This document shows positions 4,991 through 59,563 of a DNA stretch of 64,000 nucleotides, piece by piece. Position numbers and translations under genes: made by a program. The DNA comes from Gelidibacter salicanalis (lineage in GTDB: Bacteria > Bacteroidota > Bacteroidia > Flavobacteriales > Flavobacteriaceae), in the NCBI RefSeq assembly GCF_007997285.1, contig NZ_VORX01000005.1:124001-188000 (forward strand), in the 5' to 3' direction. The notes under the pieces are model-generated. The model made no database searches, was not told the origin of the DNA, and saw only the letters and a program-made list of their open reading frames with translations. Position 1 is the stretch's first letter. The number at the start of each line of letters is the position of its first letter.

Positions 4991-6949
4991 ATGAAAAAAC
5001 TATTACTACTACTTACTTTTCTAACAGGTAACTTTATTTTCGCGCAAGTCGGTATTGGTACGGATGTACCCAATGCTTCCTCACAATTAGAAATTAAATC
5101 TTCTAACAGAGGGGTTTTGATACCACAAATAGCATTAAAAGGGACTACAGATCAAGAGACTATTACAGCAGGTAACGTCGAAAGTTTACTGTTGTATAAC
5201 ACGACTAGCACTAACGGAATGACTCCAGGTTATTATTATTGGAGTCAAGACAGCTGGAAAAAATTATCAACTGGTATTGATGTGCCAGATAACATTGTGT
5301 ATTATGATGTTGTAAATAATCAATTTACACGTATTGATCAAGATGGAGATGTTATCATCATTGGAGATCCAAATCTTCAAACACTGACATTCTTACGTCT
5401 TAATGCCGACGGGTTTACTTTAGAGTATTCTGATGAAGATGAAAATCTATCAAAAATAGATTTAAAAGCTGTTGTTCAGAATTTCCAAAGTATCACGTCG
5501 CTTGTCGCTAATACCGATGGGACTGTTACATTTACTAATGAGAATAAGGAGACGGTAACTATCGATTTACCTAAAGGTTTACAAGGACCCCAAGGTATTC
5601 CAGGCGTTGCAGGTCCAAAAGGAGATAAAGGTGACCAAGGTGTTGCAGGTCCAGTAGGTCCATTAGGTCCAATTGGAGCTACGGGAACTTCAGGTCCAAA
5701 AGGAGATAAAGGTGACCAAGGTGTTGCAGGTCCAGTAGGTCCTGTAGGTCCTCAGGGTATTCAAGGTCCAGTAGGTCCTAAAGGAGCTGACGGTGCTAGT
5801 ACTGGTATTGCCGGTCCTAAAGGTGACAAGGGAGATCCAGGTGTTGCAGGTCCAGCAGGTGCTACAGGTCCAGCTGGAGTCCAAGGTCCTGTCGGTCCAA
5901 TGGGTCCTGTAGGTCCTAAAGGCGCAGATGGCTCTAGCACTGGAATTGCCGGTCCTAAAGGAGACAAGGGAGATCCAGGTGTTGCAGGCCCAGCAGGTCC
6001 TTCTGGTATTCAAGGTCCAAAAGGAGATATAGGTGCTATAGGTCCAGAAGGTCCATCTGGTATTCAAGGTCCAAAAGGAGATATAGGGGCTTTAGGTCCA
6101 GTAGGTCCATCTGGTATTCAAGGGCCAACAGGAGAACAAGGTTTAGAAGGAGTTCCAGGTGTTGCGGGTGCAGTAGGTCCAGCCGGTCCAGCGGGTCCAA
6201 AAGGTGATACCGGTTTAACCGGTCCTGAAGGTATTGAAGGTCGTCAGGGTCCACAAGGTGCGACAGGTCCAATTGGTCCAACAGGTCCGGATGGAGCAAG
6301 AGGTGAAAAAGGTGAACGTGGTTTAAAAGGTGATGAAGGTGCTAAAGGTGATACAGGTTTAACAGGTCCAGCTGGTGCAGTTGGTCAACCAGGTAAACAA
6401 GGTCCAATAGGTTCAGTGGGACCTCAAGGTCCAAAAGGTGATCAAGGTGTACCAGGTCCAATAGGTCCAGTGGGACCTCAGGGTGTAAAAGGTGATCAAG
6501 GTGTACCAGGTCCAATAGGTCCCGTGGGACCTCAAGGTGTAAAAGGTGATACAGGCGTTGCAGGTCCACAAGGTCCAGTAGGTCCAGCAGGTCCTAAAGG
6601 AGATAAAGGTGACAAGGGAGATACAGGGTTTTCTGCTCCAGCATATTTATATTTGCCACCAGTTACTGTGTATACTGATCAAAGCCAGGTGCCATCAGGG
6701 CAAACGCTTGGTTCTGTAGATGTTTACGCTATCTACCAAAAGCAAGGTGCTCCAATGGTTAAAAATCCGGGTTCTACTACTACAATTCCTGTAGTTCCGA
6801 GCAACCAATTAGATTATTTCATTACATGGTATGATACAGCTAAATTTTCAAACGTTAGTATTAGCAATAGTGGTATTTTAACCTATACTGTTATTGGTAA
6901 TGGAGGTAATCTATCGTCTTATATGACTGTAGTCGTTGCTAAAAAATAG
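4991..6949 (+). CDS. Exported collagen-like (Gly-X-Y repeat) protein
   Basis: The 652-residue product has a clear signal peptide ([19 protein letters not shown]), so the ATG at 4991 is preferred to one 13 codons upstream. Residues 20-195 start with [16 protein letters not shown], a pattern of Bacteroidota surface and fibre proteins. Residues 196-545 are about 116 uninterrupted Gly-X-Y triplets, rich in GPKGDKGD and GPVGP, broken only twice by an extra Thr (GAST/GSST). A 105-residue beta-rich C-terminal domain follows. This should form a triple-helical stalk on the cell surface. I see no canonical type IX C-terminal sorting domain, although the next three genes are of that system. Near-identical DNA blocks show the repeat grew by duplication. 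Confidence 0.85.
5576..6625 (+). repeat. Gly-X-Y coding repeat tract
   Basis: About 1,050 bases of 9- to 54-base tandem units encode the collagen-like stalk. Examples of near-identical blocks are the segments starting near 6006 and 6060 (same 33 bases, coding [11 protein letters not shown]) and those near 6438 and 6492 (54-base period, coding [16 protein letters not shown]). Such a tract can change length by slippage or recombination. Antisense open frames here are artefacts of the repeat. Confidence 0.9.
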
Positions 6950-34933: not shown

Positions 34934-35812
34934 ATGAGTAATCCGCAGCATTTCAGATATTCAACAGGCGTTGTGGGCTACCCCATCTTTTTTTTGATGT
35001 TAATCTGGGTCGTCTTCTGGTTGCAGGTCCGATTTTTCCCCGTCATCAAAACCTGGGGAATAGTACCAGAAACTTTAGTAGGATTACGGGGGGTGGTTTT
35101 AAGTCCGTTCATTCACGCCAACATTGAGCATATTTATCACAATAGTATTCCGTTAGTAGTCCTATCAATGGCCTTGTTTTATTTCTACAGGCCCATTGCT
35201 TGGAAAGTGTTGGTTTATGGTATATTACTTTCCGGAATGATCACGTGGTTTATCGGGAGACCTTCCAATCATATTGGCGCTAGTGGCCTTATTTATGTCC
35301 TAGTCAGTTTTATTTTTTTTAAGGGCATATTTGCCAAACATTTTCGGTTAGTAGCTCTTTCGCTATTGATTATTTTTCTTTACGGAAGTATGATTTGGTA
35401 TGTGTTCCCGATCAAGGATGGGGTGTCGTGGGAAGGGCATTTAGGGGGACTTATTACTGGGTTTGTCTTTGCCGTAATTTTTAGAAAGGCCATTGCCAAA
35501 CCTGATCGTTACGTGTGGCAGGAACAAGCATACAACGAAGATGATGATCCGTTTTTGAGACATTTTGATGAAAACGGGAATTTTATAGAAAATTTAGAAC
35601 CGGAAATTGAACTTGAATTTGAACTTGAAAATGAAGTTGAAGTTGAAAGTGAAAGTGAAATTGAATTTGAAAGTGAAATTGAAGATGAAAGTGAAATTGT
35701 AGATGAAAATGAAATAAAGGCGAAAGATACCACTGAAACCCCAATTGCAAATCGGTCGAACTTAAATCCATCGAAGATCCACTATATTAATAAGGAAACT
35801 CCTAAGTCATGA
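34934..35812 (+). CDS. Rhomboid-family intramembrane serine protease with acidic tail
   Basis: The 292-residue protein has six or so membrane segments, the catalytic serine motif GASG (Ser117), the catalytic His in EGHLGGLITG (His169) and the HANIEHIYHN loop (oxyanion region). It cleaves membrane proteins within the bilayer. After residue 220 a cytoplasmic tail of about 40 residues is almost only Glu alternating with other residues, coded by a 6-base repeat (35602-35712). The tail is not part of the rhomboid fold and may vary in length. Confidence 0.88.
   Translation: MSNPQHFRYSTGVVGYPIFFLMLIWVVFWLQVRFFPVIKTWGIVPETLVGLRGVVLSPFIHANIEHIYHNSIPLVVLSMALFYFYRPIAWKVLVYGILLSGMITWFIGRPSNHIGASGLIYVLVSFIFFKGIFAKHFRLVALSLLIIFLYGSMIWYVFPIKDGVSWEGHLGGLITGFVFAVIFRKAIAKPDRYVWQEQAYNEDDDPFLRHFDENGNFIENLEPEIELEFELENEVEVESESEIEFESEIEDESEIVDENEIKAKDTTETPIANRSNLNPSKIHYINKETPKS
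35602..35712 (+). repeat. Hexamer coding repeat (GAANNT) in rhomboid tail
   Basis: About eighteen consecutive 6-base units of the form GAA-NNT code the Glu-x tail. As a multiple of three, length change by slippage would keep the frame. Confidence 0.8.
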
Positions 35813-35819
35813 TGATTTT

Positions 35820-35843
35820 GTCACACTGAGCGCAGTCGAAGTG
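35820..35843. repeat. Interspersed repeat with dyad ends
   Basis: The 24 bases have the ends CACT and AGTG around GAGCGCAGTCGA. A near-identical motif (TGAGCGCAGTCGAAG) is one I recall as a frequent intergenic repeat of Bacteroidota. Only one copy is in this window. Confidence 0.45.
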
Positions 35844-35884
35844 CTTTTTAAAATCAAATAGGTGAGGGGCTAGGTTCTAGTTAG

Positions 35885-36282
35885 CAGTGTGCAGTCTTCA
35901 GTTGGCAGTCTGAATGTTGGCAATCTACAGTCTTCAGTTGGCAGTCTTCAGTTTTCAGGCTTCAGTTGGCAGTCTTCAGTTTTCAGCTGACAGTCCTCAG
36001 TCCTCAGTTTTCAGCTGGCAGTCTGCAGTCATCAATCTACATTCGTCAATTCACAATTTCATTTTTAGAATCTCGAATCCTCCCGTATCGAGAAGTGATG
36101 TATGGGTGGGTCAACAATCAACAATCAACAATCAACAATCCGCAATCCGCAATCCGCAATCTCCAATCTTCAACTTGCCCGTACCGAAAAGACACGTTCG
36201 GGCGGGTCAACAATCTTCAATCCACAATCTCCAATCTTCAACCCGCCCGTACCGAAAAGGTACGTTCGGGCGGGTCTCCAAT
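35885..36282. repeat. Composite array of 7-bp repeats and three 31-bp hairpins
   Basis: From 35885 to 36060 there are 25 units of 7 bases in phase (consensus CAGTCTT/CAGTTGG, later CAATCTA), with one 8-base unit. Then come three copies of a 31-base hairpin (36081-36111, 36177-36207, 36245-36275; the last two read GCCCGTACCGAAAAG at the 5' side and CGTTCGGGCGGGT at the 3' side) separated by 9 and 5 more heptads (CAACAAT, CCGCAAT, CTTCAAT), each run being 7n+2 bases. One heptad after the last hairpin, the rlmB stop codon begins. Open frames in all three plus-strand phases arise because the units contain no stop. Confidence 0.9.
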
Positions 36283-37017
36283 CTAAAGTCGTTGTCGCAC
36301 TACTTCGTATAGGAACGCACCACATGCTACTGAAACATTTAACGATTCAATATCTCCTAAGATTGGAAGTTTTGCCTTTTCATCTACAACTTTTAGGATG
36401 GAGGGATTGATGCCTTTTCCTTCTGAGCCCATAATGATGGCACAAGGTTCAATAAAGGAAACATCATAAAGGTTTTTGTCAGTTTTCTCTGTAGCAGCAA
36501 TAACTTTTATTCCAGAAGCCTGCATGTAAAATACCGCATCCTTAATATGGTCTACTTTACATATTGGAATTTTAAAAATGGCACCGGCGCTCGTTTTAAT
36601 GGTATCACCATTAACTGGGGCACCACCCTTTTTCTGAATAATAATTCCAGAAACTCCAGTACATTCTGCAGTTCTTATAATTGCGCCAAAATTACGCACA
36701 TCACTCAATTGGTCTAGGAGCAGGAATAGGGGTGTTTTGCCAGATTCGAGGACATTGGCTACCAATTCTTCAATAGGGTAGAAACTAATGGGGGCAATTT
36801 GCGCCACAACGCCTTGATGGTTCTTATTGGTTAGACGATTCAGTTTTTCAACTGGCACGTAAGAAGAATTCAAACGCTCTTTATGTAGCAATTGTTCAAG
36901 TTCTGTAAAAAGTTCCCCGCGAAGACCTTTTTGCAAAAATATCTTATCGATGTTTTCGCCAGATTTGATTGCTTCAATCACTGCTCTGATTCCAAAAATT
37001 GTAGTTTCGTGTTCCAT
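36283..37017 (-). CDS. rlmB: 23S rRNA (guanosine-2'-O)-methyltransferase, SpoU family
   Basis: The 244-residue enzyme has an N-terminal L30e-like RNA-binding part (TTIFGIRAVIEAIKSGENID) and a C-terminal knotted SpoU domain with LLDQLSDVRNFGAIIRTAE, IIMGSEGKGI and LNVSVACGAFLYEVVRQ, which binds SAM. It should methylate G2251 of 23S rRNA. The ATG at 37017 is preferred over one 31 codons upstream, because MEHETTIFG matches the family and a TACCTTTG promoter box ends 4 bases before it. Its stop touches a heptamer array. Confidence 0.93.
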   Translation of the reverse strand: MEHETTIFGIRAVIEAIKSGENIDKIFLQKGLRGELFTELEQLLHKERLNSSYVPVEKLNRLTNKNHQGVVAQIAPISFYPIEELVANVLESGKTPLFLLLDQLSDVRNFGAIIRTAECTGVSGIIIQKKGGAPVNGDTIKTSAGAIFKIPICKVDHIKDAVFYMQASGIKVIAATEKTDKNLYDVSFIEPCAIIMGSEGKGINPSILKVVDEKAKLPILGDIESLNVSVACGAFLYEVVRQRL

Positions 37018-47123: not shown

Positions 47124-47429
47124 ATGAGTCAAAAAATCAGAATAAAACTAAAATCTTACGATCACATGTTGGTGGACAAGTCTGCTGATAAGATTGTTAA
47201 AACGGTAAAAAGTACGGGTGCAGTTGTAACTGGTCCAATTCCTTTGCCAACAAATAAGAAAATCTTTACGGTTTTACGTTCTCCACACGTTAACAAGAAA
47301 GCTAGAGAGCAGTTCCAATTAAGTTCTTACAAAAGACTTTTGGACATCTATAGTTCTTCATCAAAAACAATTGATGCTCTAATGAAATTGGAGTTGCCAA
47401 GTGGTGTAGAAGTAGAAATCAAGGTATAG
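47124..47429 (+). CDS. rpsJ: 30S ribosomal protein S10
   Basis: The 101-residue S10 starts [21 protein letters not shown] and contains the loop [29 protein letters not shown], split at residues 34-62, which reaches the 16S rRNA. It belongs to the 30S head. It is the first gene of the S10 unit; a 339-base spacer with a palindrome ladder follows it, instead of the usual short gap before rplC. Confidence 0.98.
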
Positions 47430-47440
47430 ATCAAAAGATA

Positions 47441-47602
47441 TGTGGTAGAGACGCATAATCATGCGTCTCCACAAATGGCATTGATGCAAAATTTTGCGTC
47501 TCCACAAATGGCATTGATGCAAAATTTTGCGTCTCCACAAATCGCATAGACGCAAAATTTTACGTCTGTACAAACAATCAGAAACACATAATTATGTGTC
47601 TC
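47441..47602. repeat. Ladder of five palindromes with 33-bp period
   Basis: Palindromes lie at 47448-47469, 47483-47500, 47516-47533, 47549-47566 and 47581-47602, with centres 33, 33, 33 and 34 bases apart. Units 2-4 are GATGCAAAATTTTGCGTC or close; the first reads GAGACGCAT-AATC-ATGCGTCTC and the last GAAACACAT-AATT-ATGTGTCTC. Spacers of 13-15 bases are also alike (TCCACAAATGGCATT). It is too short and too symmetric for CRISPR. Confidence 0.9.
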
Positions 47603-47645
47603 AACATGTCCCGAGCTGCGTGCGAGGGAAAAACGGTAAAAATAC

Positions 47646-47676
47646 ATTCAGGGCTGAAGTATTTTCGGCCCTGAAT
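47646..47676 (+). terminator. Strong hairpin between rpsJ and rplC
   Basis: ATTCAGGGC (47646-47654) pairs perfectly with GCCCTGAAT (47668-47676), and inner TGAA/TTCG bases extend it. An A/T-rich stretch without a strict T-run follows, so it may attenuate transcription or mark an RNA processing site. Confidence 0.45.
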
Positions 47677-47768
47677 ATTTTAAAAAATATAGGTAACTCA
47701 CGGATTATCTATCTAAAAAACAAAGCGGACAACGTCGTGAAGTGTCCATAACAAACAAATTAATATTT

Positions 47769-48386
47769 ATGTCTGGGTTAATTGGAAAAAAAATCGGTAT
47801 GACCAGTATCTACGACGAGAACGGAAAAAATATTCCGTGTACCGTTATTGAAGCAGGTCCATGTATCGTTACCCAAGTCAGAACCGAAGAGGTTGACGGG
47901 TATAGTGCTCTTCAACTTGGTTTCGATGACAAGACAGAGAAAAGCGCCACTAAAGCTGAAGCAGGTCATGCTAAGAAAGCCGGTACTTCTGTTAAAAGAA
48001 AAGTCGTTGAATTCCAAGGGTTTGGAGAAGATTACAAATTGGGTGATGCTATTACAGTAGAACATTTCATTGAAGGTGAATTTGTTGATATTGCTGGTAC
48101 ATCTAAAGGAAAAGGATTCCAAGGGGTTGTAAAACGTCATGGTTTTGGTGGAGTTGGTCAAGCTACGCATGGTCAGCATAACCGTTTAAGAGCTCCTGGT
48201 TCTATTGGTGCGGCTTCATATCCTGCAAGAGTATTTAAAGGAATGAAGATGGCCGGAAGAATGGGTGGCGAAAGAGTTAATGTTGAAAATTTAAGAATTT
48301 ACAAAATAGTTCCTGAAAAGAACTTATTGGTGGTAAAAGGATGTGTTCCTGGTCATAAAAATTCTTATGTAATTATTCAGAAATAA
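47769..48386 (+). CDS. rplC: 50S ribosomal protein L3
   Basis: The 205-residue L3 starts at ATG 47769 ([19 protein letters not shown]); nine codons upstream another ATG is open but not conserved. It contains [19 protein letters not shown] and [16 protein letters not shown], the extension reaching the peptidyl-transferase centre. Its stop overlaps the rplD start by one base (TAATG), so translation is coupled. Confidence 0.98.
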
Positions 48387-59502: not shown

Positions 59503-59563
59503 ACGAGAGATCACTGTTTATCGAAGGATGAGATTAAGACCTTAATTCATAGACGCTCTCATA
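59503..59563 (+). promoter_or_regulatory. Possible structured leader of rpsD
   Basis: ATTAAG-AC-CTTAAT (59533-59546 region), extended by ATGA and TCAT, forms a hairpin, and outer GAGAG (about 59505) can pair with CTCTC (about 59558). S4 represses its operon in other bacteria by binding the leader; here this is only a suggestion. Confidence 0.3.

Follow-up and report, generated by a model that had tools for sequence, protein, structure and literature searches.

A ladder of RAYT-associated palindromes in Gelidibacter salicanalis adjoins a conserved leader RNA, a candidate regulator of rplC in Flavobacteriaceae

Between rpsJ and rplC, most Flavobacteriaceae carry a short conserved RNA that most likely attenuates the rplC-rplD operon, and in Gelidibacter salicanalis this leader directly adjoins a ladder of five evenly spaced palindromes. 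Known kinds of mobile palindrome account for the ladder; the worthwhile find is the leader beside it. We regard as probable an explanation of the whole locus in which the ladder is a RAYT-associated tandem repeat and the adjoining RNA is a conditional terminator ahead of rplC. The leader has apparently not been described in detail before in the open-licence literature, where the control of the rplC-rplD operon in Flavobacteriaceae likewise seems undescribed. Throughout, the window denotes the whole 64,000-nucleotide stretch of DNA that was analyzed, and the features of the rpsJ-rplC locus lie on its forward (+) strand unless stated otherwise.

RESULTS

The genes of the locus run in the order rpsL, rpsG, fusA, rpsJ, spacer, rplC, rplD, rplW, and further genes. 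Its open reading frame and comparison with relatives place rpsJ (S10), the cistron upstream of the ladder, at 47124..47429; the identity of the RpsJ protein is 100% with Gelidibacter algens (L038, on a contig shared with G001) and 98% with G. pelagius (L039). An open reading frame together with the comparison of leader loci places rplC (L3), the first gene past the leader, at 47769..48386. The spacer from the rpsJ stop codon to rplC measures 342 bases, and the five palindromes occupy its first half. The initial annotation took rpsJ and rplC to be normally close neighbors that the ladder had interrupted, which is wrong for Flavobacteriaceae: the median spacer at 85 leader-bearing loci of the family is 175 nt, and loose spacing is normal there because the spacer holds the conserved RNA that we find here at 47606-47681.

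The ladder is real and lies beyond chance. An independent scan for palindromes whose arms match perfectly over 6 bp or more and whose loops are no longer than 4 returned centers at 47458.5, 47491.5, 47524.5, and 47591.5; the fourth in order along the array, at 47557.5, has four perfect inner pairs, one C.A mismatch, and more pairs outward. A repeat search of the array recovered five copies at spacings of 33, 33, 33, and 34, and Tandem Repeats Finder assigned it a period of 33 with a score of 184; the dyad centers and spacings first read from the letters were thus confirmed. The whole array covers ~165 bp (47441-47605) and is the only chain of at least three palindromes spaced 32 to 35 bp apart in the 64-kb window.

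Unit 1 (47441..47475), defined by repeat search, folding, and the palindrome scan, is the best-preserved palindrome, with its arms set around 47458.5. Units 2 (47476..47508) and 3 (47509..47541), each 33 bp long by repeat search and Tandem Repeats Finder, are identical to one another and need a T.G wobble to be self-complementary. Unit 4 (47542..47574; repeat search, folding, and palindrome scan) has a stem with one mismatch, and unit 5 (47575..47605; repeat search and congener comparison), with its dyad at 47591.5, has a counterpart in the congener G004. The earlier statement that every unit is self-complementary therefore stands in part: the units do form hairpins, but units 2 and 3 need wobble pairs and unit 4 is mismatched. 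The string of hairpins that had been foreseen for the transcript is consistent with these hairpin-forming units, and the RNA strand of the ladder is predicted to fold far better than its dinucleotide shuffles (z = -6.0, 0/200). Elsewhere, the window holds a coding-type array of collagen-like Gly-X-Y repeats at 5609-6627 (AGGTCCAGT and longer 54-, 81-, and 138-bp units) and, at 35603-36284, a tandem-repeat cluster composed of a GAAATT hexamer array, 7/14/28-bp TCTTCAG units, and a 68-bp repeat with a GC-rich hairpin.

On sequence evidence, the ladder unit is a GTAG-tagged, REP-like palindrome that is linked to RAYT genes. Its consensus, GTAGAGACGC-n6-GCGTCTCTAC, is an imperfect palindrome in the ~20- to 40-bp range expected of REPs and capable of forming a stem-loop, and the GTAG tag stands on unit 1 (47445-47448) and on most of the dispersed copies, units 2 to 5 being without it. 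Outside the ladder, just two copies exist in this genome; they are located on contig C8 at a distance of 276 bp, and both fall inside one 244-codon open reading frame that matches the NCBI RAYT model NF047646 (E 8.8e-9) and bears the HUH-type motif MPNHLHGI. In four other genomes (L121, L129, L132, and L137; congeners and G071), a RAYT frame likewise contains the palindrome, which falls in the variable linker joining MPNH(L/V/F)H to an FGPQSKN-like stretch and is translated there as ETQNFAS-like or DAMHCVS sequence. Copies are thus found inside the RAYT open reading frames of five genomes and, by coordinates, also in G003 C23; further copies, those of L124, L126, and L130 among them, have no RAYT nearby. 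Eleven of 120 Flavobacteriaceae genomes were positive, and copy numbers of 0 to 7 per genome in relatives, with two beyond the array here, fall short of the dispersal in many copies that is expected of REPs; because of this low copy number, we call the palindrome REP-like rather than a REP family. We infer that a RAYT mobilized the palindrome in the past, and its presence inside RAYT frames would naturally tie a transposase to the sequence that is its likely substrate.

The RAYT-like gene on contig C8 (L005:3977-4711), which holds the two palindromes, also has low-complexity stretches, a (CAA)28-type polyglutamine run among them, inserted between the HUH part and the C-terminal part. A TAA stop interrupts another RAYT-like frame of this genome (L007:1483-1869 and L146).

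The proposal that pairing rather than sequence is kept is supported across palindrome copies at unlinked loci. Six of the eight pairs free of the search pattern have changed on both sides, the covariation score over pairs not forced by that pattern is 0.47 versus 0.16 in shuffles, and 84% of cells are paired versus at most 59% when the pairing is slid. This conservation is a property of a mobile-type repeat rather than evidence for local function. The flavobacterium G018 has another ladder built on this core, at a different locus. That array (L125:1468-1796), a ladder of GACGCATCGCATGCGTC palindromes, runs for 5.7 copies at a 34-bp period and then for 6.5 copies at a 24-bp period, and it sits upstream of a paaA-like gene.

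The GTAG tag defines one REP super-family (PMC3733652), and the resemblance of the ladder palindrome to GTAG-tagged REPs and their RAYTs (Di Nocera et al. 2013, PMC3733652; Nunvar et al. 2010, PMC2817692) spans several features: a short GTAG-ended stem-loop, pairing that is kept as the sequence varies, frequent clustering, and a link to IS200-like RAYT genes with an HUH motif. Unlike those elements, however, the ladder palindrome is present in very low copy, its ends are nearly symmetric, and its copies lie within the RAYT reading frame, which REPs flank.

The even spacing and similar spacers of the ladder are best read as products of tandem duplication, because units 2 and 3 are identical and the middle units are absent in G004. 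At this site in G004 (L009), AACAATCAGA lies between the counterpart of unit 1 and that of unit 5, and all three middle units are missing. The comparison of units and congeners indicates clearly that the 33-bp ladder grew by tandem duplication. Orthologous sites in congeners hold from none to about five ladder-type palindromes, these differ from one another, and the 33-bp phase does not recur: L016 carries one palindrome and L013 two, L011 shows a series of differing TGCGTCT-type hairpins, and L008, L014, and L015 have another hairpin in place of any palindrome of ladder type. The congener slots were mostly unalignable with MAFFT, and the alignment served only for the comparison of the window with L009.

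These comparisons bear directly on the earlier suggestion that the DNA ladder could bind dimers on one helical face. As an operator array, with a dimeric regulator on each palindrome controlling the operon, the ladder would make good use of its symmetric sites and of a phase close to three helical turns; we nonetheless consider this reading very improbable, and the suggestion was not supported. The phase is explained by tandem duplication and is absent in congeners, the array is confined to this species (at the site, other species of the genus show no palindrome, one, or different ones), and the identical palindrome type is found inside RAYT genes. The wobble and mismatch pairs, moreover, spoil the DNA symmetry but leave RNA or single-strand pairing intact. 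We give almost no credence to the idea that the five units are an assembly artefact, with a short repeat collapsed or expanded: the assembly is a draft and units 2 and 3 are identical, but units 1, 4, and 5 differ, the array is short enough at ~165 bp to tell against it, and the counterparts of units 1 and 5 in G004 keep their order.

Past the tandemly duplicated ladder lies the leader RNA, which covariance model R1 identifies at 47606..47681 with 87.8 bits. Its 76 bases adjoin the hypervariable palindrome slot, and both its sequence and its structure are kept in the aligned spacers of relatives from most of the family, in the order AUGUC, hairpin P1, AAAACGG, an A-rich strand ending in AAAAUAC, a terminator stem with the loop GUAUU, and a U tract. 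P1 (47609..47629; spacer alignment and covariation) has tandem G.A/A.G mismatches in this species and is followed by the invariant AAAACGG. The putative antiterminator or pseudoknot strand AAAAUAC (47639..47645; permutation test) has its partner at 47659-47665. In the terminator stem (47646..47676; covariation and folding), 47646-47658 pair with 47664-47676 around the loop GUAUU, and the U tract that follows in the sequence, AUUUU (47677..47681), is short. Three forms of P1 can stand in for one another: most sequences (62/84) have tandem R.A/A.R mismatches, 10 have an uninterrupted stem around GAUG, and 11 have a CACCG form. P1 also resembles the CTGAGC...CGAAG repeat hairpins that fill the slot in L056, L061, L077, L081, and L098.

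Covariation supports this conserved structure. Of the 21 pairs in the two helices of the leader, 12 have changed on both sides, as have 7 of the 13 pairs of the terminator stem. The two helices score 0.305 for covariation versus 0.164 in shuffles, which ignore relatedness, and at most 0.091 when slid, a control that corrects for kinship in part; 85.6% of their cells pair versus at most 55% when slid. A third helix, AAAAUAC/GUAUUUU, joins the A-rich strand to the loop plus the start of the terminator 3' arm. Its summed pairing score is 873 versus 733 (sd 13) after permutation of the loops among species (0/1000), and it takes the form AAGAAAA/UUUUCUU in Allomuricauda (L090) and AAAAAUUA/UAAUUUUU in L033. 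Because it overlaps the terminator arm, this helix would be either an antiterminator or a termination-coupled pseudoknot; RNAfold favors the terminator stem over it. A terminator stem and an overlapping, covarying helix together make a structure capable of a regulatory mechanism. A leader peptide starting at the conserved ATG was considered and rejected, since the frame is not kept and 35 of 84 sequences would stop after two codons.

Model R1 finds the leader, nearly always in single copy, in 201 of the 250 Flavobacteriaceae genomes sampled and in 183 of the 211 of good quality. In 85 spacers recovered by an rpsJ-anchored search and at 29 of 29 further loci recovered by the model, it lies directly between rpsJ and rplC. 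Among 198 genomes of the class, only three R1 matches were sound, and all three were from Flavobacteriaceae. The other eight matches were terminator-like, lacked the P1 sequence, and stood before other genes with no rplC nearby; we rejected them as signs of spread beyond the family.

The distribution of promoter elements speaks to whether the leader is merely the plain terminator of an rpsL-rpsG-fusA-rpsJ unit, with rplC served by a promoter of its own. The strong terminator-like stem and the U tract present in most species fit such a reading, as do flavobacteria without the leader: it is missing from Flavobacterium-like spacers, and TAnnTTTG, a Bacteroidetes promoter element, occurs in 6 of 11 leader-lacking spacers examined. 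We hold the plain terminator to be decidedly unlikely, however, because TAnnTTTG was found between the U tract and rplC in none of the 85 leader-bearing spacers, 45 of which have at most 60 nt from leader to rplC, and because P1, AAAACGG, and the third helix, none of which a plain terminator would need, are all conserved. Since no TAnnTTTG follows the U tract, transcription must cross the terminator to reach rplC, which argues for attenuation. Comparison among relatives shows that the leader has a conserved fold, a conserved position, overlapping helices, and no promoter consensus past its terminator.

A Bacteroidetes promoter just before the leader was seen at 5 of 85 loci versus 1.0 (sd 1.0) expected from shuffles, and L085, L087, and L101 have a promoter-like site 36-37 nt ahead of it. 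As a general feature, a promoter immediately upstream was rejected, since the signal is convincing in few lineages, Aquimarina and Maribacter among them.

The slot from the rpsJ stop codon to the leader folds better than its shuffles across the family (median z of about -3.35, 72% below -2), despite slot sequences that are unrelated from species to species; for the stretch past the leader, the median z is 0.1, with 34% below -2. In the mRNA, the ladder would be a string of hairpins tolerated in this hypervariable slot, where it may do no more than shield the 3' end of rpsJ or insulate the transcript. The hairpin excess might reflect selection rather than mere tolerance, hairpins being useful in the slot, or else a preference of REP-type elements for such sites. 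That slot hairpins of any sequence are selected, guarding the 3' end of the rpsJ message or insulating the leader from ribosomes, with REP-type palindromes recruited to the task, is a possibility, if an unlikely one. It would account for the folding of unrelated slots in most species and for the several unrelated palindrome types that occupy the slot, but in about ten species the slot measures only ~12 nt and is free of hairpins, palindromes enter the post-leader stretch too, and an insertion bias would look alike.

Past the leader, the window holds a degenerate second palindrome of the GGACAAGTCGCGACTTGTCC type (47727..47747, no strand assigned; sequence and congeners). This palindrome and its variants lie between leader and rplC in L013, L015, L016, L040, L050, and L065, and it also flanks RAYT genes in G005 C23 and G003 C37. 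Another large palindrome, GTAGGCACGCGATTAATCGCGCGCCTAC in L026, fills the slot in the Aequorivita group (L026 and L093).

DISCUSSION

Flavobacteriaceae, and Bacteroidota generally, lack Shine-Dalgarno initiation. In the mechanism that we propose for their rplC leader, the RNA at 47606-47681 would conditionally terminate transcription ahead of rplC-rplD-rplW and the genes that follow. The AAAAUAC/GUAUUUU helix would compete with the terminator stem or knot onto it, and P1 with the invariant AUGUC and AAAACGG would form the sensing site, probably for a ribosomal protein of the operon. An excess of that protein on P1/AAAACGG would favor the terminator over the AAAAUAC/GUAUUUU helix and so reduce transcription from rplC onward. 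We infer both the switching and the identity of the ligand, for which L4 is the likeliest candidate by analogy with Escherichia coli only. The terminator may be weak or of modest efficiency in this genome, where the U tract is short. A search of a relative's 23S rRNA with simple descriptors gave no convincing match that the leader might mimic, and the 23S rRNA of this genome was not found in the draft assembly.

In E. coli, L4 brings about premature termination in the S10 leader (PMC10931766). The flavobacterial leader shares with that system the rplC-rplD operon and a Rho-independent-type terminator as the expected control point. Unlike the E. coli S10 leader, however, it lies inside the operon, after rpsJ rather than before it; it is much shorter, at 76 nt; and no Rfam similarity between the two was found. 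The leader had no match in Rfam 15 at gathering score, and the spacer gave nothing credible in Rfam at E up to 10; the matches at that threshold, mostly eukaryotic miRNA and snoRNA models responding to palindromes, fell far below gathering scores and were set aside.

A survey of 20 new ribosomal protein leaders reported those of S4, S15, and S16 for Flavobacteria and none for rplC there, the rplC leader in its table being that of Archaeoglobi (Eckert and Weinberg 2020, PMC7247131). Like the flavobacterial S4, S15, and S16 leaders and the L19 examples in that survey, the rplC leader described here is lineage-restricted, backed by covariation, and positioned upstream of ribosomal protein genes. 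The known S4-Flavobacteria ribosomal leader RF03141 is present in the window at 59516-59554.

Part of P1 might already have been noticed as the GUCCY-hairpin, which might overlap the first hairpin of the leader. Table 1 of Weinberg et al. (2010, PMC2864571) places that motif, one of 104, in Bacteroidetes and Proteobacteria; it is rated uncertain both as an RNA and as a cis-regulator and has no Rfam entry. Its name and its occurrence in Bacteroidetes would fit the AUGUCCY hairpin P1; its occurrence in Proteobacteria as well sets it apart from the P1 leader.

A wider claim, that the slot functionally needs a hairpin beside the attenuator and that unrelated mobile REP-type palindromes have repeatedly been recruited to supply it, strikes us as rather unlikely; if it were true, transposase-borne hairpins would be working parts of ribosomal protein gene control in Flavobacteriaceae. 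The leader, being short, present in single copy, and furnished with a clear switch prediction, is directly testable. It is a candidate regulator of a large ribosomal protein operon, from rplC-rplD onward, in most of a major marine family of Bacteroidota.
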